Below are positions 12,093 to 40,027 of a stretch of 40,707 nucleotides of DNA, piece by piece. Made by a program: the position numbers and the translations under genes. Location: the IMG/VR virus record IMGVR_UViG_3300021197_000726, positions 1-40,707 of that record; one strand, written 5' to 3'. Below the pieces are notes generated by a model. It saw only the letters and a list, made by a program, of their open reading frames with translations, was not told the DNA's origin and did no database searches. This DNA comes from a virus. How positions within the stretch are numbered: the stretch's first letter is position 1; every line of letters starts with the position of its first letter.

Positions 12093-15000
12093 ATGGCAAA
12101 CATTCAAAGAAATTTTATCGCTGGCCGTATGAACAAAAGCCTTGACGAAAGGCTTGTTCCGAATGGTGAGTATATTGATGCTTTAAACGTAAGGCTAGGC
12201 TCTACAGAAGGTTCTGAAGTTGGTTCAGTTGAAAATTCAAAAGGAAATACATCTTTAAGCACTTTAATGTTTAACGATGTTGAATTAAGTAATAACGCCA
12301 GGTGTGTAGGCGCTTACGAAGACGGAGCAAATGAAACTATATATTGGTTTGTGCATGACCCATCTTTTCCATCAGGCTCTACAAGTAAGTTAGATTTAAT
12401 TGTATCTTATAATACAAATGATAATTCAATAACATATCATGTTATTAGTATTAATGACGGAACTAATTTAAATACTACTTTAAATTTTAGCACTTATCAT
12501 TTAATAACCGGTGTTAATTTAATAGATAATAAACTTTTATATTTTACGGACAATTTAAATCCTCCACGATACATAAATGTAAACAGAAGGTATAGTGTTC
12601 CGGTAAATAATTTAGATAGTTTTAGTGCAGAATCTATTTTAGTAATAAAAAGACCTCCCATTGAGTCTCCTACAATTCAAACAATTAATGTTTCAGGTCA
12701 AGAAGATGATTTTTTAGAAGAAAGATTTATATCATTTGCTTATAGATATAAATATGCTGACAATCAATATTCTGCAACTTCACAGTTTAGCGAGGAAGCG
12801 TTTACTCCGAGCTCATTTAATTTTAGCTACAATAGTTATTTAAATGAAGGAATGCAAAATACTAAGAATGCTGCAATTATTACTTTTAATTCAGGAAGTT
12901 CATTGGTTGAGGGTATACAATTATTGTTTAAAGAATCTACAACTAATAATATAAAAGTTATAGAGTATTTAGATAAAAGTAATCTAGGATATTCAAACAA
13001 TACTAACTACACTTATACGTTTGATAACAGTCAAATATTTACATTATTGCCTGATTCAGAATTACTGAGGCTTTATGATAATGTTCCTTTAATAGCTAAA
13101 TCCCAAACTTTAATGGGTAACAGGCTTATGTACGGAAATTATAAAGATGGATATAATTTAACTGATAAGTTTGAAGAAGATATAAGGTTAGAATTTTCAG
13201 CAGGTATTAATTCAACAGTAATAGATATTTCTGATTTGTTAGATTCTACAGGAGCAGGGAATTATACATACGGACCAACTCCCGTAACTGTAAATGATTG
13301 TGTAGTCTATTTTGATTTATCTAATCAAAATGGAACTACATTAGAATTAAATGCTGGCTCAAGTATTACATTAGATTTTAATATCCAGCATAGTCAATTT
13401 ACTGGAACTACGCCTACTTCACAAACAGTAAGCACTAGCATAGTGTTTGATTACACTCTTCCCACAAATTTCAATAATGTATATGGTTTAGCAACAAGTA
13501 CCGATTTTATTGAAAAAATAGGAACTGTAGCTAATATTCAAACCGTCACTAATGCTTGCAACGGTTCTACTTTAACTGACCAGGTTAATTGCGCATTGCC
13601 TTCTACTCTTGGAACATATACTAAAACAGCAAGTGGTATAACTGCTTCAGGACAACCTATAAATATAATAGCCTCTCCAGCAAGCAATACAATTGGACTG
13701 CAAATTATAGCTATGAATTATGTAGACGGTGCTAACAATTCGTATGAGTTTTATTCTGTTAATAGTGCTGTCGCTTCTTTTTCTACTGCAAATTCTCCAA
13801 AAAGTTTACATAGCAATAGAGGGTATGAAATAGGTATAGTGTATATGGATAATTTTAATAGAGCTTCTACAGCTTTAGTGAGTCCTAATAATTCTGTACA
13901 TATTCCTTGTTCTAGCTCAATAAATAAAAACGATATAAGAGCGACAATACCAAGTCAGCAATTAGCTCCTAGCTGGGCAACTCGCTATAAGTTTGTAATA
14001 AAGCCCTCAGAATCTACTTATGATACTATATATACAAGTATTTATTTTGAAGACCCTCTAACTAATTCAACATATTTTTTATTAGAGGGTGAGAACGCTA
14101 ATAAAGTAGAAGAAGGAGATAGATACTTTGTAAAGTCTGATAGCAATGGTCCTATACTAAGATGCGTAGAAGCTACTGTTTTAGAGAAAGAAGTAAAATC
14201 AGCAGATTTTTTAAAAGATGCTTCCGGAGCTGCCATTACTTCTCCATCTGGAACATACATGAAAATTAACCCAAATAATTTTTCTACTGTTCGTGGTGAT
14301 AATGATATTATAACTCCGGGTTCAGACACGGCGATTCAAAATAGTGCAAATAATTTTCCTATACTTTCATACCCCATGAATCTAGCTGACCCAGCAAATC
14401 CTACTCAGTTTTTAGATTATGATGTTCCTGCGGGCAGTAGAATTGTTATATCTATAAGACAAGAGAGATTAGGTGTTGGTAAAGGTAATGCAAAGTGTGA
14501 AAGAAGAATAAGCACATTAAATGTAGAGTTTGTGTCATCTACTACTTATTCAAATATGCAGGATTGGTGGAATGGAGACAACGCTCAAGTAGCATTAGAC
14601 GATGCAATTACAGAAGTCGGAGGAAACACGGGAAGCATATTAAATGTATATGAATCAGCTCCAGCCACTTCTAAAACTGATATATCAACTGCTGAAAGCA
14701 CAAATTATTATAAATTTTATAGAGAACAAAATCCTGCTGGAGGAGATGGAGAGTTATCATTACTTATTACAGGTACTGTAAGATGTGGAGGCACATTGTC
14801 AAGAGCAAAAAGACGCTCTACAGTTACAGCGGATATACAAATATATAGAGCCGATTCTATTTTAGTATTTGAAACACAACCTACTGATGCGCTTCCTAAT
14901 GTATGGTATGAAAACCACTTATCTTTTCCTATAAGTGCAGACGGAATGCATACAGGCAATGTTCAGACTCAAACATCTAGTCAATCAGCTATTATAGACA

Positions 15001-17315
15001 CAGAGTTTTCTAACTGTTATGTGTTTGGAAATGGAGTAGAAAGTTATAAAATATTAGACTCTATAACTGGTAAAACTAAAAACTTAGGAGAGCGTGTTAC
15101 TTCAACATCCAATATGAATTATAAGGAAGAACACCGTTTTGCCGACATAACTTATAGTGGAGTATATAATGATGAAACCAACGTAAATAAACTTAATGAG
15201 TTTAATTTAGGGCTTCTTAATTTTAAACCACTAGAAGAGTCTTATGGACCTATTCAATTATTAGATGGTAGAAAAACAGATATACTTACTTTACAAGAAG
15301 ATAGAATATCTTATGTATTAACAGGTAAAAATTTATTAAGCGATTCTACGGGTGGAGGAGCAGTAACATCTGTTCCGGAAGTTTTAGGAACTCAAATAGC
15401 TAGAATAGAAGAGTATGGTGTTAGTGAAAATCCTGAAAGTTATTCATCATGGGGGCCTAATAAATATTTTACTGATGCAAAAAGAGGTGCTGTAATAAAT
15501 CTAGTTGGCAGCTCAATGAGAGACGAACAGCTTCGGGTTATTTCAGAAGCTGGAATGAGAGGATGGTTTAGGGATTTATTTATACAAACTTTTAATACTC
15601 AAAAAATAGGTGGATTTGACCCTTATATGAATGAGTATGTATTGCATTCAAATGTTCAGCTACCTATAGTGTCAGAAGATTGTTTTCAATGCAACACTAC
15701 AAGAGATTTAACAATTTTACCAGGGCAAACTGTAAGTTATTGCGTGGAGTTAGGTGATTTATTAGGTCTAGTTAATATAGATTTTGTAATACCTTTTCAA
15801 GGTTTTGATAATATTGTTACTGAATCTAGTCAAAATACAGTAACTGAAACAAACAGTAACGATATAGTTTCTGAAACTACAATAAGCGGAGTAGGATACA
15901 CTATTACAGCGGTTTACAATAGCGTATCTCACACTACCGGCGTGGTGTTTCAAGACGGTACATTGACTTTTAATAAAAATGTTGTTACTACAGATACTGT
16001 TCAAATAAATATATCACACGATAGCTTATCAGCTCAAACAATAGATGTTACTGCTGGCTGTCCTCAGGCTGCAACCATGACTGTATTTAATGTTTCAATA
16101 ACCAGTAATGCTGATGCGTCTCAAAGAATTACAAATATATATAGGTGGAGTGACGGCGGGTTTAATTCACCACCTAAAAACACATCTGTTACTTTTGGAA
16201 ATAGTACTACTAATCCTATAGTGTCACAATATTTACAAGAAGCAGGGCAGCAAGGAGGAGGGTTTATTCCGGGAGATGGAGCAATAGTTTCTATTATAAG
16301 TAAAAAAGAATCTACTGATGATTTTGTATTTGACCCATCTAAAAATAAATTTAGATATCTTAGAACTGGAACTTTTTACGATAATAATGGTACTGACATA
16401 AACGCTTTGTTGGCGGCATCAACTAATGTTACTCCTATATCAAGTCAAACTAACCCAGACCAATATTCAGCAAGTTTTACTTTGCCTGCTGGCGGTAATT
16501 TTTTATATTTAATTTGGGACTATAGACAGTCTAATTCACAAAAACTTTGTTATTCAACAACAAGCACTACAGATGCTTGTACAGGGTGTACTTTTCCACC
16601 TACACCTGTTCCGACAGCTCCAGTACCGGTAACACCAGTATATCGATGGTTAATTGAACCAGGAACGGGTAGCTCTACAAGCCCTACATCGTGTCCCTCA
16701 GCCTCTGTAGCTCTTTATAGTTTTTCTAGTTCGTTTGCTACTACATATGCTAATAGCACATTCTTCTATACAGATGCAGCATTAACAACAATATTTCAAG
16801 GAGGAAATAATTATTTTGGAGTAAGAGAGCCTAATCAAGGTTATGGACAGTCACAGGGAATTTTTAGAATGACAGATTTAGGAACAGCTTCTAATATAGA
16901 TACAGCTGGGGTTTGTAATCCAAATCCAACGCCTGTGCCTGTGCCTGTGCCTGTGCCAGCGCCAGTAGCGCCTAGCCCTGTGCCTGTACCTACAACTCCT
17001 GTACCAGCGCCAACAACAAGCACCACGGCATTTACTATGACAAGTATTAATGTATATTGGAGCAGTTATTTAGATGCTTGCGTTAATGGGCCTAGCTCTT
17101 CGACACAAACCTATTATCATAGTGGTAGCGGTGCGTGTCCAGTGGGCGCAGATTACATTTATACAGATGCGGCAGGAACAACCTTATTAAGCAGTGTTAC
17201 TAATACATTTGGTAAAGTGTGGTTTATTCCGCCTAGTGTTTGTTTACCAAATGGGAAAGCTGTAGAAATAAGTCCAGGCTCAGGTTATATTTATGGAGAA
17301 GGTATTTGTAATTAA
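12093..17315 (+). CDS. Tail stabilization / nozzle protein with C-terminal adhesin modules
   Basis: This 1740-residue protein begins with FIAGRMNKSLDERLVPNGEY and DALNVRLGSTEGSEVGSVEN, the hallmark start of the tail stabilization (gp12-like nozzle) proteins of crAss-like and flavobacterial podoviruses. The core continues to about residue 1190 (LQEDRISYVLTGKNLL; RGWFRDLFIQTFNTQKIGGF). From about 1190 it carries beta-rich modules, then a Cys-containing adhesin module (FFYTDAALTTIFQGGNNYF), a Pro-rich linker at about 1609-1643 made of VP/AP/SP/TP pairs, and a second adhesin module (YIYTDAAGTTLL). It is probably both structural tail component and receptor binder. The Pro-rich linker is a candidate substrate for the hydroxylase encoded downstream. 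Confidence 0.75.
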   Translation: MANIQRNFIAGRMNKSLDERLVPNGEYIDALNVRLGSTEGSEVGSVENSKGNTSLSTLMFNDVELSNNARCVGAYEDGANETIYWFVHDPSFPSGSTSKLDLIVSYNTNDNSITYHVISINDGTNLNTTLNFSTYHLITGVNLIDNKLLYFTDNLNPPRYINVNRRYSVPVNNLDSFSAESILVIKRPPIESPTIQTINVSGQEDDFLEERFISFAYRYKYADNQYSATSQFSEEAFTPSSFNFSYNSYLNEGMQNTKNAAIITFNSGSSLVEGIQLLFKESTTNNIKVIEYLDKSNLGYSNNTNYTYTFDNSQIFTLLPDSELLRLYDNVPLIAKSQTLMGNRLMYGNYKDGYNLTDKFEEDIRLEFSAGINSTVIDISDLLDSTGAGNYTYGPTPVTVNDCVVYFDLSNQNGTTLELNAGSSITLDFNIQHSQFTGTTPTSQTVSTSIVFDYTLPTNFNNVYGLATSTDFIEKIGTVANIQTVTNACNGSTLTDQVNCALPSTLGTYTKTASGITASGQPINIIASPASNTIGLQIIAMNYVDGANNSYEFYSVNSAVASFSTANSPKSLHSNRGYEIGIVYMDNFNRASTALVSPNNSVHIPCSSSINKNDIRATIPSQQLAPSWATRYKFVIKPSESTYDTIYTSIYFEDPLTNSTYFLLEGENANKVEEGDRYFVKSDSNGPILRCVEATVLEKEVKSADFLKDASGAAITSPSGTYMKINPNNFSTVRGDNDIITPGSDTAIQNSANNFPILSYPMNLADPANPTQFLDYDVPAGSRIVISIRQERLGVGKGNAKCERRISTLNVEFVSSTTYSNMQDWWNGDNAQVALDDAITEVGGNTGSILNVYESAPATSKTDISTAESTNYYKFYREQNPAGGDGELSLLITGTVRCGGTLSRAKRRSTVTADIQIYRADSILVFETQPTDALPNVWYENHLSFPISADGMHTGNVQTQTSSQSAIIDTEFSNCYVFGNGVESYKILDSITGKTKNLGERVTSTSNMNYKEEHRFADITYSGVYNDETNVNKLNEFNLGLLNFKPLEESYGPIQLLDGRKTDILTLQEDRISYVLTGKNLLSDSTGGGAVTSVPEVLGTQIARIEEYGVSENPESYSSWGPNKYFTDAKRGAVINLVGSSMRDEQLRVISEAGMRGWFRDLFIQTFNTQKIGGFDPYMNEYVLHSNVQLPIVSEDCFQCNTTRDLTILPGQTVSYCVELGDLLGLVNIDFVIPFQGFDNIVTESSQNTVTETNSNDIVSETTISGVGYTITAVYNSVSHTTGVVFQDGTLTFNKNVVTTDTVQINISHDSLSAQTIDVTAGCPQAATMTVFNVSITSNADASQRITNIYRWSDGGFNSPPKNTSVTFGNSTTNPIVSQYLQEAGQQGGGFIPGDGAIVSIISKKESTDDFVFDPSKNKFRYLRTGTFYDNNGTDINALLAASTNVTPISSQTNPDQYSASFTLPAGGNFLYLIWDYRQSNSQKLCYSTTSTTDACTGCTFPPTPVPTAPVPVTPVYRWLIEPGTGSSTSPTSCPSASVALYSFSSSFATTYANSTFFYTDAALTTIFQGGNNYFGVREPNQGYGQSQGIFRMTDLGTASNIDTAGVCNPNPTPVPVPVPVPAPVAPSPVPVPTTPVPAPTTSTTAFTMTSINVYWSSYLDACVNGPSSSTQTYYHSGSGACPVGADYIYTDAAGTTLLSSVTNTFGKVWFIPPSVCLPNGKAVEISPGSGYIYGEGICN

Positions 17316-17324
17316 TTTTAAAAA

Positions 17325-18002
17325 ATGGCAACACTAGCAACATATTATTTTGATACAGCAAGTTTTACAAACGCAACAACGATTTATGATGATGCGAATT
17401 TATCAACTATATCACAAAACGGATGGTATTCCGATGACAGTATTGTAAGGCAACAAATAAGCGGAGTTTTAATGGCGGGGCAATCGTGTAGTGTTCCTAC
17501 TCCTGTGCCAACGCCTACAGCACCAATACCTGTGCCTGTACCTGCTCCAGCTCCAGCTCCTGTTGCTCCTAGTCCTGTGCCTAGTCCTGTAGCGCCTGTA
17601 GCGCCTAGCCCTAGTCCCACCCCTACTCCTAGTCCTGTAGCGCCTGTAGCGCCTAGCCCTAGTCCTGTACCTAGTCCAGTGCCTACAGCTCCGGTGCCTG
17701 CTCCTATTGTACCTCCTAGTCCAACGCCAGTTCCAGTAGCCCCTAGTCCTGCTCCAGTAGCGCCTAGTCCTGTTCCAGCCCCAGTGGTTCAATGCTATAA
17801 TTTATATGTGCAAAAAAGCAGTTCTACTGTGTGTTCAGGTAGTTATGGAAATTATTTCTTTAACGCCTCCAGTTTAAGCTCTGCTACTACTGCATATGCT
17901 AATAGTAGTTGTAATTCAAATGCTAGTGCTGGATATTATACGCAAGGTCTTACATATAAATATTGGAATGGTTCAAGTTTTACATTGACAGGAAGTTGTT
18001 AA
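17325..18002 (+). CDS. Pro-rich fibre/adhesin with AGP-like linker
   Basis: The 225-residue protein has three parts. Residues 1-55 form a small module (TYYFDTASFTNATTIYDDAN, ending in Cys) like those at the end of the stabilization protein. Residues 57-153 are almost entirely Pro alternating with V, A, S or T, a spacing that forms polyproline II helices and resembles plant arabinogalactan-protein glycomodules. Residues 154-225 are a second Cys- and Ser-rich module. There is no signal peptide, so it is probably a virion protein. The gene starts 9 bases after the stabilization gene and directly precedes the modification cassette. The DNA encoding the linker is GC-richer and repetitive. Fibre function is inferred from composition and context. 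Confidence 0.7.
   Translation: MATLATYYFDTASFTNATTIYDDANLSTISQNGWYSDDSIVRQQISGVLMAGQSCSVPTPVPTPTAPIPVPVPAPAPAPVAPSPVPSPVAPVAPSPSPTPTPSPVAPVAPSPSPVPSPVPTAPVPAPIVPPSPTPVPVAPSPAPVAPSPVPAPVVQCYNLYVQKSSSTVCSGSYGNYFFNASSLSSATTAYANSSCNSNASAGYYTQGLTYKYWNGSSFTLTGSC
17580..17665 (+). repeat. 48-bp-period direct repeat in Pro-rich linker
   Basis: Two identical 38-base copies (17580-17617 and 17628-17665) lie 48 bases apart, encoding a 16-residue unit of the PSPVAPVAPSPSP type. Such in-frame repeats can expand or contract by slippage or recombination, changing linker length. Confidence 0.85.
17670..17692 (+). repeat. 23-bp repeat shared with the downstream fibre gene
   Basis: The 23 bases encoding PSPVPTAP here occur again, identically and in the same orientation, at 22251-22273 and 22278-22300 in the second fibre gene. 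These copies bracket the whole modification cassette and could support recombination between the two fibre genes. Confidence 0.85.
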
Positions 18003-18020
18003 ATTTAATTAAATATAATT

Positions 18021-18620
18021 ATGATGCTAATAAAAGAAGAGAGGAAGTATGTTCCGTATGACCCTAGTCCACTACAGCCAATTACTAGAGCAACCAAAAA
18101 AGGTTTTCAAGTATTAGATGTGCCTCCAGCGGTATATAGTATACTTGTTGATTTTTATGACAGAGCTCAGTTTCAAGAAGAAAATTATCCAGGGAAGGAG
18201 GCTTATTCAAAACAAGTAAGTTTTTTACAAGACATAAATCAACACCAAGATAAAGTAAATTTTATAAAATCAACCATGCTTGATTTACATCAAGAGTGGT
18301 GTCAAAGAGATTTAAACCCAGCTGTAGTTTATGGCGTAAGAAGTTATAGCAATAACACCATTTTTAATGCGCATTTTGACAGACAAGATACCCATCATGT
18401 TGCTTCTAGTATTACTCTTGGAAAAGATGCTCCTTGGAATTTAAATATTCAAGACCATGATAATCAGTGGTGGGGAGTAGATGTTGAACCCGGTCAAATG
18501 ATTATGTTTGAATCTGGATGCTGTATGCACGGAAGATTGGATAATTATCAAGGGACTTACTTTGACAATATATACACACACTTTACTTACGCAGAACCGT
18601 TTACTCCTTATGAAGGATAG
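18021..18620 (+). CDS. Fe(II)/2-oxoglutarate oxygenase, prolyl-4-hydroxylase-like
   Basis: The 199-residue protein has a double-stranded beta-helix core with the iron-binding triad HxD...H: H118 and D120 (NAHFDRQD) and H170 (CCMHGRLDNYQG), followed by YFDNIYTHF. Spacing, and the VYGVRSYSNNT strand before HxD, resemble the P4H-type 2OG-FeII_Oxy group, enzymes that hydroxylate side chains with O2 and 2-oxoglutarate. A basic residue at the usual 2-oxoglutarate position after the distal His is not obvious; R172 might serve. It follows the Pro-rich fibre gene by 18 bases, making that fibre the natural candidate substrate (inference). Start may be ATG 18021 or the adjacent ATG 18024. It overlaps the glycosyltransferase gene by 11 bases. 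Confidence 0.75.
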   Translation: MMLIKEERKYVPYDPSPLQPITRATKKGFQVLDVPPAVYSILVDFYDRAQFQEENYPGKEAYSKQVSFLQDINQHQDKVNFIKSTMLDLHQEWCQRDLNPAVVYGVRSYSNNTIFNAHFDRQDTHHVASSITLGKDAPWNLNIQDHDNQWWGVDVEPGQMIMFESGCCMHGRLDNYQGTYFDNIYTHFTYAEPFTPYEG

Positions 18621-19674
18621 ATATATATCTTTTGATTGGTGGTGGGGTGGTTTTAATAATATTCGGATGTGCTATGAGATGGTTGGAGCTATGTCATATG
18701 TTTCAGGAAGAAAAATTATATTACCTCCTCCAGGGTATTGTTTATTTTTAGCAGAGCATCACGACAAAAAAACTTTTTGGGATATTTGGGAAATACTAGA
18801 TAAAAAAGCGTTTACAGATAATTTTGATTGTATCGATTATAAAGATACTGACCTTGTAAAATATTCTTCAGAGATACAAAACTATGATGGTATATGTAAA
18901 GACATTAAATGTGTAATGTTTAACGATACAGACATAAACTGGGGTCCTCAAAAGTTTATAGGTAAAGGTCTTATATACCATAGTATAGAAGATATAAATC
19001 ACTTTAACGAATTTAATTGTGACAACAGAGAATTTTTATATGATATTATGTGTGAAGATAAAATCATACATTTTCCTAGAAATTTATTGGGACATTTTGG
19101 ATACCATGTATATCCTCCTAACGACAACGCAAGAAGGATAATACAGCAAAAAGTAAAAGATGGTATAAAGTTTAGAGAAGAGTTTTTTGTACAGTCAAAA
19201 AAACTTATGCCTGGCGACTATGACGCTGTGCATATAAGAAGAGGAGATTTTAAATATACACAAACACAATGGACAGAAGACCTTTACAAGAATCTTGAAG
19301 CATTATTAGATGGAAGTGTCAGAAAATCAGTACCTTTATACATAGCAACTGATGAACCTGACTTATCAATGTTTGATTTTTTAAAAGAAAAATATAATAC
19401 TATTTTTTTAAAAGACTTAACACAGTCTAGCAAAAGCCATGAGTTAGTTTTAGACACTATTATATGCGCCAATGCTAAAAACTTTTATGGCTCTAGGATG
19501 TCTACATATAGTGATTACATAAATATAGTTAGAGGCTACAATGGTGAAATAGACCATCACAGAAAGTCTTTAAACTTTGACAGAAAACAAATTCAATACA
19601 ATAAATACCCTTGGGAATCAGAGCCCTACAACTGGCAAGACCTTTGGGGTGAATTATATTATGGCAAAATTTAA
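18610..19674 (+). CDS. O-fucosyltransferase-like GT-B glycosyltransferase
   Basis: Residues follow the O-FucT / GT23-like pattern: an N-terminal GGFNNIR (13-19) with SGRKIILPP behind it, the nucleotide-sugar motif HIRRGDF (H208, R210, R211, D213), and FYGSRMSTYS (292-301) near the C-terminus. Protein O-fucosyltransferases and NodZ use GDP-fucose and share the HxRRGD motif. I start at ATG 18610 (354 residues) because MKDRYISFDWWWGGF is the natural beginning of the fold; a longer frame from 18508 would overlap the oxygenase by 113 bases. The start overlaps the oxygenase end by 11 bases. Sugar and acceptor cannot be read from sequence; a hydroxylated or Ser/Thr-containing fibre is one possibility, a glycan another. 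Confidence 0.75.
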   Translation: MKDRYISFDWWWGGFNNIRMCYEMVGAMSYVSGRKIILPPPGYCLFLAEHHDKKTFWDIWEILDKKAFTDNFDCIDYKDTDLVKYSSEIQNYDGICKDIKCVMFNDTDINWGPQKFIGKGLIYHSIEDINHFNEFNCDNREFLYDIMCEDKIIHFPRNLLGHFGYHVYPPNDNARRIIQQKVKDGIKFREEFFVQSKKLMPGDYDAVHIRRGDFKYTQTQWTEDLYKNLEALLDGSVRKSVPLYIATDEPDLSMFDFLKEKYNTIFLKDLTQSSKSHELVLDTIICANAKNFYGSRMSTYSDYINIVRGYNGEIDHHRKSLNFDRKQIQYNKYPWESEPYNWQDLWGELYYGKI

Positions 19675-21121
19675 TTTAGGAATACACGGGTCTCATAATG
19701 CAGCAATAGCTCTATCTTATGGAGGAGACATTCTTGAGGTAATAGAATTAGAAAGATGGGTGCAAATAAAAAATGCAGCATTTTTTTATTACCATCCCAT
19801 ACTTAACCCTATTGAAGTTTTAAATGAAATATTAGATTACTTTGAATTAAAACACGGGGCAAAAGAATATGATTATGCTATGACAAACTCTTGGCCTCAA
19901 GAACACAATAAAGATTTAAGAGCTGCTAATGTATTGTATGTTCCACATCATGAAGCACACGCTTGTAATGTAATGTATCATTCAGAGGCTAAGGAATCTT
20001 TAATTGTTTCTTTTGATGGAGGTTCTGATAATGGTCATTTTAATATATATTTAGGTGAGAAAGGACAACATCCTCAACTTATACATCAATCAGAAAAAGA
20101 TTTATGTGTTCCTTACGCTGCTTTAGGGCATTATATGGGAGACATAACAAGAGAAAGGGATTGGTGGTTTGGTAATTTAACTTATGCCGGTAAAGCTATG
20201 GGGCTATCATCATATGGAAAAAGAGATGATGAAATGTTTGGTTATGTAACTCGTTTATATGATATGAGTAACAGCAACGAGATAGATAAAGCTCATAAAA
20301 ATTGGTCAGAAATGTTTTGTGGTTGTCATCAAAAAGATGAAAAATCTAAAGACCTTGCCTATGCTAATCAGTATATGTTTGAAAAAAAGTTTGCAGATAT
20401 TGCATTGCCTTTTATATTTAAATATCCAGATAGAGAAATACAGTTTGCTGGCGGCGGCGCTATGAATATATTAAACAATACCACATATAAAGCTTTTGTT
20501 TCTCCTAACTCAGATGATAGAGGTATAGCATTAGGGTGTTTATTAAGTTTAATTAAACCTTCTGAGCCTATAGACAGCACTTACTTAGGCTCTGAACCAT
20601 ACGATGATATACCTGAAGGTAAAGATATAAGTGTAGGCGAAGTGTCTCAAATGTTATTACAGGGTAAAATAATAGGATTAATACAAGGACGAGCAGAACA
20701 CGGTGCTAGAGCTTTAGGAAATCGCTCTATACTTTGCACACCCAAACAAGGAGTAAAAGAAAGATTAAACTCAGAGGTAAAAAATAGAGAGTGGTTTAGA
20801 CCTTTTGCCGGAGTGTGTAGAGAAGAAGATGCCCGTCAATATTTTAAGTCTTATGGCAGGCACAGGTGGATGACTCACAATGTAAAAGTAAAAGATAGTC
20901 GGTTTCCTGGAATAACTCATGTAGATAAAACTTGTAGGCTTCAAACAGTTACTGAAAAACAAAATAAATTTATATATGATTTGCTAGAGTATCACCCTGT
21001 ATTATTAAATACCTCTTTTAATATTCAAGGCAAACCAATATTAAACACTTATAAAGAAGCTATGTGGATGAAAGAAAACACAGGAGTAGATGAAGTAATA
21101 ACCAATAAATATATATTATAA
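19661..21121 (+). CDS. Carbamoyltransferase (NodU/TobZ/HypF-C family)
   Basis: The 486-residue protein contains the full set of family motifs: LGIHGSHNAA (N-terminal), the metal-binding HHEAHA (H96, H97, H100), FDGG, GKAMGLSSYG, GGGAMN, the carbamoyl-adenylate site GRAEHGARALGNRS (343-356), REWFRPF, HVDKTCRLQTV and LLNTSFN. These enzymes move carbamoyl from carbamoyl phosphate, via carbamoyl-AMP, to a hydroxyl, typically of a sugar (Nod factor, tobramycin). I use ATG 19661, which overlaps the glycosyltransferase by 14 bases; an earlier frame from 19577 adds residues unlike the family. It probably decorates the sugar added by the preceding enzyme (inference). Confidence 0.92.
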   Translation: MAKFNLGIHGSHNAAIALSYGGDILEVIELERWVQIKNAAFFYYHPILNPIEVLNEILDYFELKHGAKEYDYAMTNSWPQEHNKDLRAANVLYVPHHEAHACNVMYHSEAKESLIVSFDGGSDNGHFNIYLGEKGQHPQLIHQSEKDLCVPYAALGHYMGDITRERDWWFGNLTYAGKAMGLSSYGKRDDEMFGYVTRLYDMSNSNEIDKAHKNWSEMFCGCHQKDEKSKDLAYANQYMFEKKFADIALPFIFKYPDREIQFAGGGAMNILNNTTYKAFVSPNSDDRGIALGCLLSLIKPSEPIDSTYLGSEPYDDIPEGKDISVGEVSQMLLQGKIIGLIQGRAEHGARALGNRSILCTPKQGVKERLNSEVKNREWFRPFAGVCREEDARQYFKSYGRHRWMTHNVKVKDSRFPGITHVDKTCRLQTVTEKQNKFIYDLLEYHPVLLNTSFNIQGKPILNTYKEAMWMKENTGVDEVITNKYIL

Positions 21122-21663
21122 TGTTAAAAAAAATAAAATTAGATTATGATTGGAGTTATTTTTTACCTCCAATGCAAGATTATTCAGTTCATAAAGGAAC
21201 TTGTTTGGCGCATCAGCTTGATGAGCTAACAGACATACACGAAGAGTATGGGCTAGGAGAAACGTATACTAAAGATAATACTGTAATTCAGCAGCTATGG
21301 TACACAGACAAACAGGTAGATTTTAAAGACTTAGGAAAACAAACTGGAATGGAAGTAATTACTATCTCTAGTATATTACAGCCTCCAGGAAATACAATTG
21401 CTTTACATAGAGATACTTTTTTTCAAATAAACAAAAGGTTTCCTGATGACAAGAGAACAAAGGTAAGGGCTAATATATATCTTGAGCCTTGGAAAGTTGG
21501 ACATATGTTACAGTACAAATCTGAAGAAGATAATATTTGGAAAACATCCGATAATTGGAACGCTGGAGATGGCTATATATGGGATTCTAAACCGCTTCAT
21601 TTATCAGCAAATGCAGGTATGAAAGACAAGTATACTCTTCAGATATCAGGCTTCTTGCTCTAA
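21121..21663 (+). CDS. Fe(II)/2-oxoglutarate oxygenase, aspartyl/asparaginyl hydroxylase-like
   Basis: The 180-residue protein carries a complete 2-oxoglutarate oxygenase site: H96 and D98 (ALHRDTF), distal H160 (KPLHLSANAG) and K170 ten residues further, at the usual position for binding the 2-oxoglutarate carboxylate. R116 in RANIYLEPW and the HLSANAG string resemble the Asp/Asn beta-hydroxylase branch, different from the oxygenase at 18021. TAATG joins it to the carbamoyltransferase gene, so it is the last gene of the cassette. Substrate unknown: it could hydroxylate a fibre residue or oxidise the sugar or nucleotide sugar. Confidence 0.75.
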   Translation: MLKKIKLDYDWSYFLPPMQDYSVHKGTCLAHQLDELTDIHEEYGLGETYTKDNTVIQQLWYTDKQVDFKDLGKQTGMEVITISSILQPPGNTIALHRDTFFQINKRFPDDKRTKVRANIYLEPWKVGHMLQYKSEEDNIWKTSDNWNAGDGYIWDSKPLHLSANAGMKDKYTLQISGFLL

Positions 21664-21693
21664 AAGATGCAAGCAATTAAATTTGTAAATTTG
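21655..21693 (+). promoter_or_regulatory. Tandem -7 elements with a -33 TTG
   Basis: TTG at 21655-21657, 20 bases, then TAAATTTG (21678-21685) directly followed by a second TAAATTTG (21686-21693). Both match the Bacteroidetes -7 consensus. They precede the fibre gene at 21711 by 17-25 bases and separate its expression from the modification cassette. Confidence 0.65.
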
Positions 21694-21710
21694 TAGTTAA
21701 ATAAATCCGT

Positions 21711-23543
21711 ATGGCTTTTTATTATGAATTTACTCGCTGTGATGATTCTAGCATAAAAAATGATTGGACGTTTCCAGGGAATCCTCAGCTAAACATTTTT
21801 GATGTATATTCTATATATGGATATTGTTGGCAAGTAACAGCTTTAAGAAATAGCGGACAACAAGTAGTGTCCAGTGCCTACTATGGGTTAAATGGTTGTT
21901 CTCAATGTACAGCCCCTACACCCGCACCATCGGCTACGCCTCCTACTTCTTATTTATGGCAATTTAATCAAGTTCAAGGAAATGGTAGTTTTGTAAAACC
22001 TACCTCTTGTACTAATTGTCCAGTAACTGTATATTCTGATGTAAATAGTTATAGCAATGTGGTATGCGGTACACAGCACTTTTGGTTAGATGCAAGTCTT
22101 ACTACTCCATTTATAGGAAGCAATCAGTTTTATATAGCTACTCCTGGCAGTACTCCTGCTACAGGAACAGGAATGCTTTTAATTGAAAATAACGGCACAG
22201 TAACAAACAAATACGACTGCAATGGAGCTAATATATGTTTTGGTCCAGCGCCTAGTCCAGTGCCTACAGCTCCATCCCCTAGTCCAGTGCCTACAGCTCC
22301 AGTACCTTCTCCTGTACCAGCACCTGTAGGTCCAAGCCAACCTGAATATTGTTTACAATCTACAAATGCGGTAACTATAGAAAATATTGGAGGAATAAAT
22401 AAATATGTATTTGGAGGTAATTATGGCTTATATGGTAGTGGAACAGGAATTTTTGTTTTTACAAGCGTTCCGTCTTCACATCCTATAGCTTTTCAAAATT
22501 ATGGTAAAACATCTACAATAGATTATGAAGGTCAATTTAGTGTAGGAACTAAAACTGGACAAGACGGAAACACCTATGAATATTTTTATGGAGATGTAAC
22601 GCTTACGGTTACCGGAGCTTACGGTGTTATTGGTTATGAGTGTTATTATCATGGATACATGGGTGGACAAAACAATTTAATGTATGATAATGTTATTTGC
22701 CCAAACTTACAGCCGCCAATTATACCACCTCAAGGAGACCCTTCACTTCAATACACTTTAACTTATAGTGACACAGCAAAAGGCTGGCCTTCGTTTTATT
22801 CTTACTTCCCAGATTGGATGATAGGAATGAATAATTACTTTTATTCTTTTAAAGGAGGTAACTTATTTAGACACAATACCAATGAATTAAGAAACAATTA
22901 TTATAATGTTCAGTATAATTCAACATTAACAAGTGTGTTTAATGATATGCCATTAGAAAATAAATTATTTAAAACTATAAATTTAGAATCAGATAAGGCT
23001 TGGTCTGTAACCTTAGATAGTGACATACAAACTGATGCAAGCATAGATTATACATGGTTTGAAAAGAAAGAAGGGGCGTGGTTTGCTTTTGTAAGAAACA
23101 ATGGAACACTTCCAGCTCAGACAAAAGAATACCCTATGCGCTCAGTAAATGGTATAGGCAGAAGCACTTCGGTAAGTGTAGTAGGAACGAGCACTATAAT
23201 TAATTTTGCAACAGACCCTTTAATAGCTATTGGCAGCGACCTTAGTGTTGGCGACATTATATACTTTGCGCCTCCTCCATATAGCGCAGTAGAAATGGCT
23301 GGTCAAGTAACGGCAATAAACATAGACTTACAAAACAATACCAACAACATTGTTATTGATAATTCTATAACTGGAGCAGTAGCTATATCCCTACAGGATG
23401 GGTTTATAATGTACATTAAGAATCAGCAAGCTGAATCAAATGGAGTATTAGGACATTACTGCTTGTTTACAATAACAAATACAGATAGCACAGCTACGGA
23501 ACTATTTGCTGTAGAGTCTGAAGTAATGAAAAGCTATCCCTAA
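21711..23543 (+). CDS. Mosaic tail fibre with cupredoxin-like and tail-tip domains
   Basis: The 610-residue protein is modular. Residues 1-66 are a small Cys-rich module. After a short Pro-rich linker, residues 80-170 are an adhesin module (HFWLDASLTTPFIGSNQFYI). Residues 178-209 are a second Pro-rich linker. Residues 215-330 form a cupredoxin-like domain with a plausible type-1 copper ligand set: H257, C311, H314 and M317 (ECYYHGYMGG). Residues 345-610 contain FPDWMIGMNNYFYSFKGGNL, a block I associate with the C-terminal part of stabilization proteins in related phages. It has its own tandem promoter. It is probably a tail-tip or receptor-binding protein. Related cupredoxin-like domains with a C-x2-H-x2-M string occur in marine phage structural proteins. 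Confidence 0.7.
   Translation: MAFYYEFTRCDDSSIKNDWTFPGNPQLNIFDVYSIYGYCWQVTALRNSGQQVVSSAYYGLNGCSQCTAPTPAPSATPPTSYLWQFNQVQGNGSFVKPTSCTNCPVTVYSDVNSYSNVVCGTQHFWLDASLTTPFIGSNQFYIATPGSTPATGTGMLLIENNGTVTNKYDCNGANICFGPAPSPVPTAPSPSPVPTAPVPSPVPAPVGPSQPEYCLQSTNAVTIENIGGINKYVFGGNYGLYGSGTGIFVFTSVPSSHPIAFQNYGKTSTIDYEGQFSVGTKTGQDGNTYEYFYGDVTLTVTGAYGVIGYECYYHGYMGGQNNLMYDNVICPNLQPPIIPPQGDPSLQYTLTYSDTAKGWPSFYSYFPDWMIGMNNYFYSFKGGNLFRHNTNELRNNYYNVQYNSTLTSVFNDMPLENKLFKTINLESDKAWSVTLDSDIQTDASIDYTWFEKKEGAWFAFVRNNGTLPAQTKEYPMRSVNGIGRSTSVSVVGTSTIINFATDPLIAIGSDLSVGDIIYFAPPPYSAVEMAGQVTAINIDLQNNTNNIVIDNSITGAVAISLQDGFIMYIKNQQAESNGVLGHYCLFTITNTDSTATELFAVESEVMKSYP
22251..22300 (+). repeat. 27-bp-period direct repeat in Pro-rich linker
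   Basis: Two identical 23-base copies (22251-22273 and 22278-22300) encode PSPVPTAP twice. The same 23-mer is found at 17670-17692 in the upstream fibre gene. Confidence 0.85.
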
Positions 23544-23564: not shown

Positions 23565-23975
23565 ATGAAATTAAATATTAGACCACTTGAAGAGTCTGAC
23601 TATGAGCAGATTTTAGTAGGTTGGTGGAAAGATTGGAAATGGGAAGCACCTGTTAAAGATTTTTTACCAGATGAAGGTAAAGGTGGTTTAATAGTTTATG
23701 ATGAAAAAATACCTGTTTGTGCAGGATTTATATATATGACAAATTCAAAAGTAGCTTGGGTAGATTGGATTATTTCTAACAAAGATTATACTGATAGAGC
23801 CAACAGGAAGGCTGCTTTAGTTTTGTTGATTGACGCTCTTACTAGAGTAGCGCAAAGCGCAGGAAACAAATTCACATACGCTCTTATAAAACACGATGGT
23901 CTTATTAAAACATATGAAGAGCTGGGTTATATTCAAGGAGATAGCTACACTAAAGAAATGATAAAAGTATTATAA
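23565..23975 (+). CDS. GNAT-like acetyltransferase
   Basis: The 136-residue protein shows the GNAT outline: an N-terminal strand (LNIRPLEESDYEQI), a central beta pair (GGLIVYDEKIPVCAGFIYMT), the motif-A region with a helix (DRANRKAALVLLIDALTRVA) that would bind acetyl-CoA although the R/Q-x-x-G-x-G/A loop is degenerate, and the typical end TYEELGY. GNAT proteins acetylate amines of proteins or small molecules. It opens the unit of internal virion proteins with a one-base gap to the next gene. Target unknown; host proteins or virion proteins are both possible. Confidence 0.7.
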   Translation: MKLNIRPLEESDYEQILVGWWKDWKWEAPVKDFLPDEGKGGLIVYDEKIPVCAGFIYMTNSKVAWVDWIISNKDYTDRANRKAALVLLIDALTRVAQSAGNKFTYALIKHDGLIKTYEELGYIQGDSYTKEMIKVL

Positions 23976-34747: not shown

Positions 34748-35263
34748 TTATATATTATTGGTTTCTAGTTCATTAAATATTCTATAGGTCTTTGGAGCAT
34801 TCTTTTTAAGCTTATGTAATAAAAATCTATACCTTCCTCTGAGGGCTCGGTACTTAGATTCCATCTCCTCACATTTCTTTTTATGTAACACTTCTTGTTC
34901 TATTATTTTTTCTTTTATATCTTCATACGCCACCTCGTACATTTCTTTTTCAGTCTTTGTTCTGCCAAAAGCTTCGGGGTTCATCTCTATTAAGAAGTCT
35001 GTTTTTTTCTCTATTGATTCATAGATGCTTTTAAGATTAGTATCGTAAAGCATCCAATCTTTAAAATTCTTTATAGAGTGTATTACTGTAGCGTGGTTCT
35101 TGTCTAGTGTTTTAGAAATGCTTTGAAGACTCATTCTTCCCTTGTCCCTAAGAAGCATATAGTATACAGCTCTCGCCTCCACATATTTTCTTCTTCTAGT
35201 TTTTCTTATTAATTGTAAATTAAATTCTTTTTCTACTAAATTTTTAATTAATTCTACACACAT
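34748..35263 (-). CDS. Stand-alone DnaA domain IV-like protein with coiled coil
   Basis: Residues 1-75 match the DNA-binding domain IV of the replication initiator DnaA: YVEARAVYYMLL corresponds to the basic/helical part and NHATVIHSI (56-64) to the DnaA signature usually reading DHTTVxHA. No AAA+ domain is present. Residues about 110-160 form a charged coiled coil (DIKEKIIEQEVLHKKKCEEM). It could bind DnaA-box-like sites in the phage or host origin, acting as initiator, competitor or repressor (inference). It is embedded in the replication gene block, with a one-base gap to its upstream neighbour. Confidence 0.75.
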   Translation of the reverse strand: MCVELIKNLVEKEFNLQLIRKTRRRKYVEARAVYYMLLRDKGRMSLQSISKTLDKNHATVIHSIKNFKDWMLYDTNLKSIYESIEKKTDFLIEMNPEAFGRTKTEKEMYEVAYEDIKEKIIEQEVLHKKKCEEMESKYRALRGRYRFLLHKLKKNAPKTYRIFNELETNNI

Positions 35264-36163: not shown

Positions 36164-37399
36164 TTATAAATTTAATAAATCTTTTCTAAAATGTGATAGG
36201 GTATAATCTTTTTTATCCGTTACTGCTTTGTATATTTTCTTTTCTATACCACCTCTACTAAATATCCAGTACACATCATTCTCTAATCTTTCTTTAGTTG
36301 TCATCCTGTCTTTGCTCTGCCAGTAACTGGTTGCACTAAAAGCAATGTTGTAATACACTAAACAGTCTGCTTGTTTTAAGCTTATTCCTTCTCTTCCACT
36401 TACAATTTGAAGAGCTATGCTTTTACTGGTCTCTTCAAACTCACTAAGCTCTGTGGTCAGCTCATCTCCATAGACCTCCTTTAGAGCCTTCAGCTCGGCT
36501 TTAAACACATAAAAGATACCTACCTTCGTGTTTTTAAATTTAGAGCGTATAAACTTAGCTTTTGAGTAGTCAAGTATGTCTGAGTTTCCGCTCTCAAATT
36601 TTATAGTTCCTGAATAAAGCTGATGAAGTTTCATCATAAGCTTTACTGGAGTGTCTGCCAGTATAACCTCCCTCTTTCCTTCAATGACTAATTTCTTTTT
36701 TAACTCGCTGGCTAATTCATAAGTAGTCTTTTCCATCTCTACCTCTAGTACTTTTTCAGTAGTCTTTACCTTAAACCCTGCCTCTTTTTGTGAGTACGCA
36801 ATAGTATATGGCTTCATCGCATCCATAATAGTTGGAAGACCATGAGAGTAATCTCTTATCTGCATTCCGTTGATGGGTTTGATTTTTATGTCTATATACT
36901 TGTGAGCAAACTTATAGAAATTGGTATACTCTTTAAATGGGTTGTTGGGAATGCCATATACTTGATGATACATCTGACTGTATGATTCAGGAGTTGGCGT
37001 ACCAGACATTAGTATAACATTTGCTTTGCTTTTTATTATACGCATCTTTACATCTCTAGCACGCTTACTGGGCTTTTGTAGCTTACCCATTGAATGTGCC
37101 TCATCTACAATTATTAAATCCCAATCTAAATCATAAGACACCTTGTGCAGGCTTTCATAATTTATAGTATGTAAAAAATAAGTTGGTCTTAACATATCAT
37201 AGTCCCTGTCAATAGATGATATGGCTTTCTTTTTGGTAATAAACAAAACCTTCTGTGCTTTAAGTTCTATTCCAATAGATAGAGCCGTAAGGGTTTTTCC
37301 TGTACGCACCTCCATTGCTAAGTAAACAAAACCATTCTGCTTTATTACCTCAGTCGCCTTGTTTACTATACGCTCTTGATAGTCTCTTAGTTGTATCAT
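36164..37399 (-). CDS. SF2 DEAD/SNF2-type helicase
   Basis: The 411-residue protein has the superfamily 2 motifs: QLRDYQ (Q-like), Walker A VRTGKT (31-36), DEAH (99-102), SGTPTP (132-137), and C-terminal VSGREGISL and QSKDRMTTKER (motifs V and VI). The motif VI arginines and the layout suit the SNF2/DEAD-like phage helicases used in replication, recombination or chromatin-like remodelling of bound proteins. The ATG is preceded by the AT-rich AAATTTT leader. It sits between the primase-helicase and the nuclease genes. Confidence 0.88.
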   Translation of the reverse strand: MIQLRDYQERIVNKATEVIKQNGFVYLAMEVRTGKTLTALSIGIELKAQKVLFITKKKAISSIDRDYDMLRPTYFLHTINYESLHKVSYDLDWDLIIVDEAHSMGKLQKPSKRARDVKMRIIKSKANVILMSGTPTPESYSQMYHQVYGIPNNPFKEYTNFYKFAHKYIDIKIKPINGMQIRDYSHGLPTIMDAMKPYTIAYSQKEAGFKVKTTEKVLEVEMEKTTYELASELKKKLVIEGKREVILADTPVKLMMKLHQLYSGTIKFESGNSDILDYSKAKFIRSKFKNTKVGIFYVFKAELKALKEVYGDELTTELSEFEETSKSIALQIVSGREGISLKQADCLVYYNIAFSATSYWQSKDRMTTKERLENDVYWIFSRGGIEKKIYKAVTDKKDYTLSHFRKDLLNL

Positions 37400-37589
37400 A
37401 AAATTTAATTTTTGCTCTTAATGTTGTAATCTTAACTACTTTGTCCCACTCTTTTTTAGATTTAAAATGCCTAAACATATCCATAAGGACCTCATCATTT
37501 AAATCTGCATTAGGGTTGTGCATAAAATAAGTATTGCTAAAGTCTTTCAGCAAAACATCATTAAATATTATGTCGTAGGAGTTACGCAT
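37350..37589 (-). CDS. Small hypothetical protein
   Basis: I use ATG 37589 (79 residues). A TTG at 37613 overlaps the primase-helicase stop (TTGA) and would add eight residues. The protein is helical and charged, with a basic C-terminal half (RHFKSKKEWDKVVKITTLRA). Its end overlaps the SF2 helicase start by 50 bases. No family recognised; a helicase or primase accessory role would be a guess. Confidence 0.5.
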   Translation of the reverse strand: MRNSYDIIFNDVLLKDFSNTYFMHNPNADLNDEVLMDMFRHFKSKKEWDKVVKITTLRAKIKFYDTTKRLSRAYSKQGD

Positions 37590-37609
37590 CGCTATGTCTA
37601 TATAAAATT

Positions 37610-40027
37610 TCAAAACTCAATAGATTGCTGAGGAACAATTTCCTCAATAGGTTTTAAAATTATCCACTTGCCCGATGCATCTCTTCCGTGTTTAGGGTTT
37701 ACTCCATCTTTAAATAAACAGTAAGATATAAGCCATCTATAAAAACGAGTCCTTGAAATAGAATACTTTGCCCTTGGAGCGTAGTCTGGGTATTCAATCA
37801 CAAACTCCTCGTACAAGGTCTGCATACTAACCCTACCTCCATCAACAAAGTTTCTGTTGGGCACTGCACCATCTATAAGACCACACCACTCTATAAAATC
37901 ATGGCAAGTCTCTGCTGATAACTGTCTTACTTTTAAATTAACAAACTTACTTTTTATAAGTCCTTTGTTTAAAAACAGTTGCAAGCAGTCTATCATGTAG
38001 TTATCAAACTGAGACCACTCTTCAGTATCCCAATCAGTAAAAAACATTTTACCAAACTCATCGTGAGGAACGAATTTTTCGTGATAGTGTTGGTGTAATT
38101 CGAGTTCCCACTTTCTTCTAGCAAATGAATTACCTGCACCCTTGATAGCATAGTTGGTTGTTATTATAATTTTGGGAGACTTCTCAAATGGAATTGTAAT
38201 CGCATCTTTGTTTTTCTTTTCTAAAGTTAGCCCCTCTGTTATGACACTAAATAGTTTTTCAAAATCAAAGTATTTTTTTACATCATCAAAAGCTATTATC
38301 TGTGTGTCTGCTGACACTAACTGATATGCGAAAGCACGCTCAAAGGTAAAGTCTTTTCCGTTGATAGTAATTAACTTTTTCATATGCCCTAATGCATTTT
38401 TAAATACACCTTTGCCCGTTCCCCCTTCAGGGTTGTCTGATATTATCTCATCATTTAAAATTACGGCAGGGCAGTAGGACATATTCTTATGACCATGCAA
38501 CAAGAATCCAATAGTTGACTCCATCGATGTGGTTCTACTACTGTCCTTGTAACAAATATTATTTATAAATGTTTTGTAATCTGATTTGTCTACCCTCTCT
38601 CTTTTAAAATTCCTGTCTATAATTCTGTCTTTCCAAACGTAGCCTCCCAAATCTAGGTAGTCAATTGCCTTGACTTCTTTCTTGGTTACTCGTACTGCAC
38701 AGTTGTTATAATACAAGTAACTTGCAAATGGACTGTCCTCTATAAAAAGAATATCAATCGTTCCCAGCAGGGTAAGAAACTCTTCTCTGAAGAATCTTGT
38801 TTGGTCTGCAAAGTAGTTGTATACGCTGATGTCATCAAAAGATTTAAGATGCTCGAGTATAAAGTCTTTTATTTCCTTCTCACTTGTATGGTCTATAAGG
38901 TTGTTAGTAACCTTAACAAAGATGTATGTCTTACTTCCTTCGGGACAGTACTTGTAAAACCCGTGGTCTTCTAAAAATTCTTTAAACACATAGTGTATAA
39001 TTTTTATTACACCCTTTTCGCTCTTGTTCCAAAACTTCATCTCCTTGTTCTCTTCATCTGCTCTTACAAGAACAGAATCGATAACCTCTTCCTCTATGTC
39101 TAGTCTTGTGAGTTGAGTTCGTATCTCTGATTTAGTTACACCTCTTTTTAGTTTTTGTTTTATCTCGGAGATAGCCTCATCATCCTCATAGTATTTACTA
39201 TTAAATTTAGATACGTTCTGATAAGCTGAAGTTATGGTCTGGTCTATCTCGGATAATGTAAAATCACTAGACTGATATTGATTACATATGTACTGTGCTA
39301 GGTTTTTATTAATGCCATAGTCATTAAACGCCATAGCTAACACATACACATTATGGTTTCTCTGCCCTTCTACCATTGGATGTTTCTTGTTCCACCACTT
39401 CACAAGTATGTCTACAATTTTGTTTTCATCTGTGATTGGAATGGTTGGTTGGTCTTTAGCTACAGACACTTCTCTGTACTCTGCCTCCTCTAAAGTTTCC
39501 CAAATGGTTGAGTTCTCGTTTACATATATTAGAGGGTCGTATGATTCATAACATACCCTGCTGATGTTTTTACTTGTCTTGTCAAAGTGATTGGAGTTGT
39601 AATACTTTTCTAAAGATTGAAAGTATTTGACATGGTTCTCTGCATCGTTTGGAATCTTAACAATAGTTTTAAGACCATTACCACTAGGAGATATGAAGCA
39701 AGCAAAAGTGTACTTGTCCTTCATCATTTTTTCCTTGTCTTGAATCATGTCCTTTTGTTTTGCATATCCATCAAAGTCTAGGCATATAAGTCCACTGTGT
39801 TCAAGCAGGGAGTTGTCAGCACGCTTTGAAAACTTCCCACTGAAGCAGATGCTAACTAATTTTTGTTTCAAAGAATTACGCTCTGATTTGTTTTTTTCTT
39901 TTCTGATTTGTGTTACAAGTTCTTTTGACTTGCCTTCCCTTATTCTGTCTAGCACTAGGGTTACATCTCTGTGATGTGGTGTCTGTGTATTAAGAATATC
40001 CTGGAAGATAGTGATGGTTCGTGTCAT
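37610..40027 (-). CDS. Primase-helicase (AEP-like + D5/SF3-like ATPase)
   Basis: The 805-residue protein joins two replicative activities. The N-terminal domain is of the BT4734/VirE-N kind related to archaeo-eukaryotic primases: LICLDFDG with D84/D86, SPSGNGLK (113-120) and SKNISRVCYESYDP (152-165). After a linker (about 200-440), the C-terminal AAA+/SF3-like ATPase has Walker A NPEGGTGKG (532-540), Walker B IIAFDDV (D581, D582) and sensor-type IIITTN. It would lay primers and unwind the phage genome. The start overlaps the preceding small membrane frame by ATGA. It opens the replication block visible here. Confidence 0.88.
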   Translation of the reverse strand: MTRTITIFQDILNTQTPHHRDVTLVLDRIREGKSKELVTQIRKEKNKSERNSLKQKLVSICFSGKFSKRADNSLLEHSGLICLDFDGYAKQKDMIQDKEKMMKDKYTFACFISPSGNGLKTIVKIPNDAENHVKYFQSLEKYYNSNHFDKTSKNISRVCYESYDPLIYVNENSTIWETLEEAEYREVSVAKDQPTIPITDENKIVDILVKWWNKKHPMVEGQRNHNVYVLAMAFNDYGINKNLAQYICNQYQSSDFTLSEIDQTITSAYQNVSKFNSKYYEDDEAISEIKQKLKRGVTKSEIRTQLTRLDIEEEVIDSVLVRADEENKEMKFWNKSEKGVIKIIHYVFKEFLEDHGFYKYCPEGSKTYIFVKVTNNLIDHTSEKEIKDFILEHLKSFDDISVYNYFADQTRFFREEFLTLLGTIDILFIEDSPFASYLYYNNCAVRVTKKEVKAIDYLDLGGYVWKDRIIDRNFKRERVDKSDYKTFINNICYKDSSRTTSMESTIGFLLHGHKNMSYCPAVILNDEIISDNPEGGTGKGVFKNALGHMKKLITINGKDFTFERAFAYQLVSADTQIIAFDDVKKYFDFEKLFSVITEGLTLEKKNKDAITIPFEKSPKIIITTNYAIKGAGNSFARRKWELELHQHYHEKFVPHDEFGKMFFTDWDTEEWSQFDNYMIDCLQLFLNKGLIKSKFVNLKVRQLSAETCHDFIEWCGLIDGAVPNRNFVDGGRVSMQTLYEEFVIEYPDYAPRAKYSISRTRFYRWLISYCLFKDGVNPKHGRDASGKWIILKPIEEIVPQQSIEF

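Follow-up and report, generated by a model that had tools for sequence, protein, structure and literature searches.

Why should a phage place two oxygenases, a glycosyltransferase and a carbamoyltransferase between the genes for its own tail tip? The question is raised by the IMG/VR virus record IMGVR_UViG_3300021197_000726, an incomplete 40.7-kb record of a crAss-like phage of bacteria that was analysed over its whole length (positions 1 to 40,707; the window). Four enzyme genes, which we call the cassette, lie here between two genes for proline (Pro)-rich proteins, and a first-pass annotation had proposed that the phage hydroxylates and O-glycosylates its own Pro-rich proteins. Our analysis supports that core idea through the match between linkers and cassette in related phages, a prolyl 4-hydroxylase (P4H) domain in relatives, and two families of hydroxyproline (Hyp) glycosyltransferases in relatives. 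We consider it likely that the cassette modifies the Pro-rich tail-tip proteins of the phage itself, by hydroxylation of linker prolines, O-glycosylation of Hyp and carbamoylation. The basis is gene content, the linkers, homology, catalytic motifs, co-occurrence, glycosyltransferase swapping and gene fusions; the modification itself is a proposal.

The candidate substrates are encoded by the only Pro-dense open reading frames (ORFs) of the window, named here by their start positions: 12093 (12093..17315, 1740 residues, a large tail-tip structural protein of muzzle/nozzle type), 17325 (17325..18002, a small tail-tip protein of 225 residues) and 21711 (21711..23543, a muzzle C-terminal-domain protein with a Pro-rich N-terminal extension). 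All genes from 12093 to 23543 are on the + strand and overlap or are closely spaced. The AP, SP, TP and VP pairs first seen in these three proteins are confirmed, since the observed Pro-dense length was reached in 0 of 2000 residue shuffles of each, and they map (all +) to FPPTPVPTAPVPVTP (16593..16637) and NPNPTPVPVPVPVPAPVAPSPVPVPTTPVPAP (16917..17012) in 12093, to a 97-residue AP/SP/TP/VP linker in 17325 (17493..17783), which is the putative substrate, and to 21912-21944 and GPAPSPVPTAPSPSPVPTAPVPSPVPAPVGPSQP (22242..22343) in 21711. The window proteins thus carry the Pro-rich XP repeats by which hydroxyproline-rich glycoproteins are recognised. Within the 17325 linker, Pro is written with four synonymous codons and alanine (Ala) also with four, and simple DNA slippage therefore does not account for it. 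In 12093, the conserved core spans residues 1-1486, whereas residues 1487-1740 consist of two Pro-rich linkers and small domains; because homology to the phage genome MW202828 and to Cellulophaga phages does not continue past residue 1486 and the linkers begin at 1501, the linkers are, judged by homology, segments added to conserved tail-tip proteins. A small domain with a motif like YxDxxLTTxF is repeated between the linkers of the tail-tip proteins (window 16593-23543), and domains of this type may also connect the carriers of other phages.

Which linker residue would carry a sugar? The share of Pro in the linkers is 33-49% in every phage tabulated, while serine plus threonine (Ser+Thr) varies and falls to ~9% of linker residues in one phage of the O-FucT type, which has VP/IP/AP repeats; the linker of locus L265 likewise consists of VP/IP repeats with little Ser/Thr. 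This constancy of Pro against the fall in Ser+Thr favours Hyp as the natural acceptor, if a glycosyltransferase acts on the linkers. Linkers tend to be Thr-rich where the glycosyltransferase is of the GT60 class and rich in valine and Ala where it is O-FucT, and there is no clean rule.

The first-pass annotation took the carriers for tail fibres, and here it has to be revised. The 21711 product contains the crAss_MUZ_C domain (PF25729, E 8e-16, 58.6 bits vs. a cut-off of 27), and 12093 is a virion structural protein by phrog_14478 (E 8e-226) whose residues 1-1486 are 47% identical to MW202828 and 30% identical to Cellulophaga phage phi19:3, and whose N-terminus matches the PhicrAss001 muzzle protein gp44 in an hhalign profile comparison (E 9e-6, probability 83%). 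Given PF25729 in 21711 and the gp44 match of 12093, the Pro-rich proteins of the window are, by homology, components of the tail-tip muzzle, which in PhicrAss001 is a hexamer of roughly 1 MDa located at the tail tip (PMC10172136). The complete genome MW202828, from Manatee Spring, has orthologs of 12093, 17325 and 21711 in the same order, all Pro-free (that of 21711 has 267 residues); the four enzyme genes are missing, and neither the XP pattern nor a homolog of ox1, the first cassette oxygenase, occurs anywhere in the record.

The same correspondence extends across the relatives, for which the first-pass annotation had proposed a survey of linker and oxygenase co-occurrence. In 80 loci picked out solely for their muzzle domain, Pro-rich tail-tip proteins accompany ox1 homologs on every contig of sufficient length and are missing where ox1 is missing. 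With the addition of loci found through the enzymes (80 of 308 P4H-ox1 matches were examined), the set grew to 95 muzzle-bearing representatives, of which 52 have both cassette and linkers, 42 have neither, none has the cassette alone and one appeared to have linkers alone. This last locus, L226, was rejected as a case of linkers without cassette; its muzzle match is spurious and the locus does carry a cassette. At the level of genes, 95/136 core tail-tip ORFs are Pro-rich in loci with the cassette vs. 0/120 in loci without it. For non-core genes, 29/139 of those immediately next to cassette genes are Pro-rich, compared with 8/765 genes further away and 0/350 in cassette-free loci; the Fisher tests on these per-gene counts ignore relatedness, and the contrast within loci is the fair comparison because those loci were chosen via their enzymes.

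The first cassette gene, ox1 (18021..18620, +), encodes a putative Fe(II)/2-oxoglutarate (2OG) prolyl hydroxylase with the iron triad H118/D120/H170; the HxD...H pattern is kept in 48-49 of 49 homologs, one having HxE. Its AF2 model (pLDDT 86) has as top Foldseek matches Pseudomonas putida P4H, PHD2 and a Dictyostelium PHD. In most relatives, ox1 forms the C-terminal half of a protein of 380-390 residues, the N-terminal half of which is a classical P4H (PF13640 5e-16; PDB P4H structures E 1e-30, with matches to Bacillus anthracis P4H, Chlamydomonas P4H-1, human collagen P4H and 5c5t) with invariant H92, D94, H161 and K171, the catalytic residues of collagen- and plant-type P4Hs. It is solely by fold and by this fusion that 18021 is a putative prolyl hydroxylase. 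Some loci with ox1 alone retain an HPAT or GT60 glycosyltransferase, and because no P4H is present on their (partial) contigs, this suggests that ox1 may be sufficient for hydroxylation. The last cassette gene, ox2 (21121..21663, +), occurs alongside the O-FucT and carbamoyltransferase module, and its HxD...H...K pattern is invariant across 6 homologs; by this motif, it is a putative second Fe(II)/2OG oxygenase.

Between the oxygenases lie an O-fucosyltransferase-like glycosyltransferase (O-FucT; 18610..19674, +) and a TobZ/NodU-type O-carbamoyltransferase (19661..21121, +), both with improved ATG starts at these positions. The O-FucT matches PF10250 (E 4e-11, 43.4 bits vs. a curated cut-off of 31.5) and POFUT2 (6e-11) and has an HxRRxDF motif; the carbamoyltransferase matches PF16861 (1.9e-47) and PF02543 (1.8e-10), with TobZ and GdmN as PDB matches, as expected for the TobZ/NodU family. 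Of the four enzymes first proposed between 17325 and 21711, all are thus present as ORFs; the O-FucT and carbamoyltransferase are confirmed by Pfam and PDB, the assignment of 21121 comes from its motif, and the likeness of 18021 to a classical P4H does not hold.

The glycosyltransferase position is a slot with four module types: HPAT-like (PF23452), radical SAM plus PF11397, GT32-like, and O-FucT plus carbamoyltransferase plus ox2. The tree requires at least 13 changes of the class in the slot, with linkers and oxygenase being kept, and this swapping suggests that an exposed tail-tip sugar may be under changing selection. Characterised members of PF11397/GT60 glycosylate Hyp, and the relatives have a PF11397 GlcNAc/GT60 enzyme with a strong match (E 6e-35, 121.8 bits vs. 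a cut-off of 21). Among the HPAT-like slot enzymes, 12 of 22 match PF23452 at E<=0.01 (best 4e-12; 30.7 bits vs. a cut-off of 23.9 for that of L026), D105 and D107 of a DxD motif are invariant, and an AF2 model (pLDDT 95.5) gives GT-A-type matches; characterised HPAT members also glycosylate Hyp (PMC8012813). The two families are unrelated to each other, and both are confined to relatives and absent from the window. HPAT-like enzymes were not found in the bacterial and archaeal genomes searched.

Several slot loci have further features. A radical SAM/SPASM enzyme accompanies the GT60-type glycosyltransferase at L018:7171-8079, making an extra peptide or sugar modification possible. A DegT-family aminotransferase and a GNAT acetyltransferase adjoin the HPAT gene at L026:7660-9299 (Pfam) and L100:6866-8556 (by eye), suggesting an acylated amino sugar. 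At L154:9383-10837 and L150:9383-10840, on contigs of 287 kb and 42 kb, the HPAT-like domain follows an N-terminal segment that by eye is SGNH-hydrolase-like, and on a large phage contig an HPAT-like gene has a fibre gene of collagen-like (GPQ) type close by, on the opposite strand (L126:10001-10831 and 14909-18115).

Outside the crAss-like phages, the set of cassette genes comes after Pro-rich genes on siphophage-like contigs, beside a tape-measure-like gene (L105, L190), on large myovirus-like contigs (L102, L154, L252) and in L103, L233 and L260. With their Pro-rich regions masked, the carriers fall into about eight sequence groups. The enzymes also occur fused to each other, as P4H+ox1 (142 ORFs), O-FucT+ox1, O-FucT+GT60 and O-FucT+carbamoyltransferase, and these fusions connect the proposed steps. 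Single-gene fusions of O-FucT with ox1, a GT60-like domain or a carbamoyltransferase are seen at L248:815-2632, L222:8317-10251, L221:11244-13814 and L230:1897-4458. A poly-Pro protein with, by eye, a Hint/intein-like segment lies immediately upstream of a GT60-like gene (L260:6556-7260). P4H homologs of Erwinia, Salmonella and Microcystis phages were rejected as cassettes, having no Pro-rich neighbour.

These data are consistent with a pathway in three steps. The ox1 protein, with its fused classical P4H domain in relatives, would hydroxylate prolines in the (XP)n linkers; the slot glycosyltransferase, O-FucT-like in the window, would add a sugar onto Hyp; and the carbamoyltransferase, perhaps together with ox2 acting in a further hydroxylation, would cap that sugar. 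This would yield a polyproline-II rod coated with glycans that joins small tail-tip domains and is stiff and protease-resistant, with an exchangeable sugar coat. Because algae build extended filaments from glycosylated Hyp-rich helices (PMC11015965), stiff, protected spokes between the tail-tip domains seem a likely outcome. More broadly, it is somewhat more probable than the opposite that several unrelated phage lineages make hydroxyproline-rich glycoproteins, with interchangeable Hyp glycosyltransferases (HPAT, GT60, O-FucT, GT32) providing a variable sugar coat.

A number of observations weigh against modification of the linkers by the cassette. The O-FucTs characterised so far use Ser/Thr rather than Hyp as acceptor. 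The ox1 of the window differs from collagen- and plant-type P4Hs in that PF13640 is not matched and the Lys of HxD...H...K is absent. It is without a family assignment, 18021 and 21121 both giving zero family matches in Pfam, NCBIfam and PDB searches; its TM-scores to prolyl hydroxylases are just 0.5-0.6, and other double-stranded beta-helix (DSBH) enzymes match too. Window-type ox1 proteins also have Asp at a position where most relatives carry an Arg that may bind 2OG. Finally, PF13640 or a classical P4H is absent from 5 window-type contigs, some near genome length, and ox1 or ox2 would therefore have to do the hydroxylation there. Together with the TP and SP pairs present in most linkers, the acceptors of known O-FucTs and the non-classical ox1 could mean that the glycosyltransferases act on linker Ser/Thr (or on sugars) and that the oxygenases hydroxylate the sugar or another residue. 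We regard this as unlikely, given that Hyp is the known acceptor of HPAT and PF11397/GT60 relatives, that most relatives carry P4H domains and that some linkers, such as the VP/IP repeats of L265, are poor in Ser/Thr.

Further points on the same side concern the co-occurrence. The association in crAss-like phages corresponds to one or two changes on the muzzle tree, with about two independent origins, so that the crAss-like data alone amount to few independent observations; an independent-pairs test on the tree had two pairs only, which puts significance out of reach. The same linker type is common in phages without a recognisable cassette, and the rule that a linker implies a cassette was rejected, as only about 6 of the 80 viral loci picked for their (A/S/T/P)-P repeats have cassette-like genes near them. 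Locus L100 has P4H-ox1, HPAT and GT60 with no Pro-dense gene in the 16 kb examined. Frequent linkers without cassette and few independent events would suit linkers that serve simply as flexible spacers and have spread by recombination, the enzymes hitch-hiking on the same tail-tip module. This seems to us very improbable: the cassette recurs with unrelated carriers and phage types, its glycosyltransferase has been replaced repeatedly, and the families used are specifically P4H and Hyp glycosyltransferases. In cyanophage-type O-FucT+ox1 loci, a Pro-rich gene nearby is absent, and in S-SCSM1-like cyanophages the O-FucT, ox1 and carbamoyltransferase genes are surrounded by GDP-fucose genes and other glycosyltransferase genes, at a distance from the tail genes. 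In print, the oxygenases and fucosyltransferases of cyanophages are at present assigned to host metabolism and the cell wall (PMC9602691). The cassette could accordingly be an auxiliary-metabolism or surface-modification set that alters host polysaccharides or 2OG metabolism, its place in a tail operon being incidental, but this has a low probability in our view, for in crAss-like phages it is flanked by tail-tip genes, in other phages it comes right after Pro-rich tail genes, and its presence tracks the linkers gene by gene. S-SCSM1 too, the one cyanophage genome scanned whole, encodes two Pro-rich proteins with a virion-protein annotation, distant from the cassette. The case that was to count against modification of the phage's own proteins, a cassette without any Pro-rich protein, is seen in no crAss-like relative and only locally in cyanophages. 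One annotated virion protein of S-SCSM1 has 2603 residues and an (RP/QP/NP)n stretch of >100 residues (MK867354.2, 23462-31273); mass spectrometry of virions of this cultured phage had identified 45 virion proteins (PMC9602691).

Elsewhere in the window, a weakly acetyltransferase-like phrog_17252 gene (23565..23975, +) follows 21711; it is probably outside the cassette, because it lies downstream in relatives both with and without one. The strand opposite to the tail genes carries replication genes (34748-35263 and 36164-40027, -), namely those for a DnaA-C-like protein and a helicase and a primase-like gene of the BT4734/DUF5906 type. No GDP-fucose genes were noted in the window, which is itself a partial record.

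Elsewhere, Hyp glycosylation has been described in plants, algae and slime moulds, and if the modification proposed here is real, it would extend Hyp O-glycosylation to bacterial viruses and would be, to our knowledge, the first such prokaryotic system. It would describe a tail surface whose sugar coat changes through gene swapping, possibly an arms-race module for receptor or defence evasion, and may supply compact cytoplasmic enzymes for producing hydroxyproline-rich glycoproteins in bacteria. Among marine-phage genes that lack an explanation, those for 2OG oxygenases, prolyl-hydroxylase-like ones included, rank with the most common, and the cassette offers a concrete substrate that would, if correct, explain the prolyl-hydroxylase-like genes of many marine phages. 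Such structures are widespread in marine phages (PMC12774648), and the viral use of these oxygenases has been called cryptic (PMC9301287) and not specifically investigated (PMC9602691). A literature search, which left subscription papers and preprints outside its scope, returned nothing on phage Hyp or on a P4H-glycosyltransferase tail system.

How does the phage system compare with those already described? The PhicrAss001 muzzle protein gp44 (PMC10172136) resembles the window proteins in its C-terminal domain and N-terminal match, whereas in the window clade the muzzle is split across several proteins with Pro-rich additions. Plant and algal Hyp-rich glycoproteins (arabinogalactan proteins, extensins and the Chlamydomonas mastigoneme; PMC11015965) share the (XP)n modules and a P4H-type enzyme, and in relatives the P4H domain matches Cr-P4H-1 (3gze) and an HPAT-family glycosyltransferase is present; in contrast, the phage targets are virion proteins, presumably produced in the cytoplasm of the bacterium with no secretory pathway involved, and the window has O-FucT and carbamoyltransferase in place of HPAT. 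S-SCSM1 shares homologs of ox1 (29%), O-FucT (33%) and carbamoyltransferase (39%) in one region as well as Pro-rich annotated virion proteins, but there the cassette is distant from the Pro-rich genes and the published interpretation differs, as described above. The P4H of chlorovirus PBCV-1 (Eriksson et al. 1999, pmid 10428773, as cited in PMC9301287) is a virus-encoded enzyme for viral proteins, and its structure, 5c5t, was one of those matched by the phage P4H domain in the PDB. The phage system differs in that PBCV-1 is a virus of an alga. Skp1 of Dictyostelium and Toxoplasma is modified by a cytoplasmic P4H and then a PF11397-family GlcNAc-transferase, a pair that also occurs in L018, L021, L027 and L029 (L024 with ox1 only); Skp1 is modified at one proline of a globular protein, however, while the phage target would be a repetitive tail-protein linker. 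We know of no linked Hyp-glycosyltransferase cassette in PBCV-1. The chemistry and enzyme families are already known from eukaryotes.

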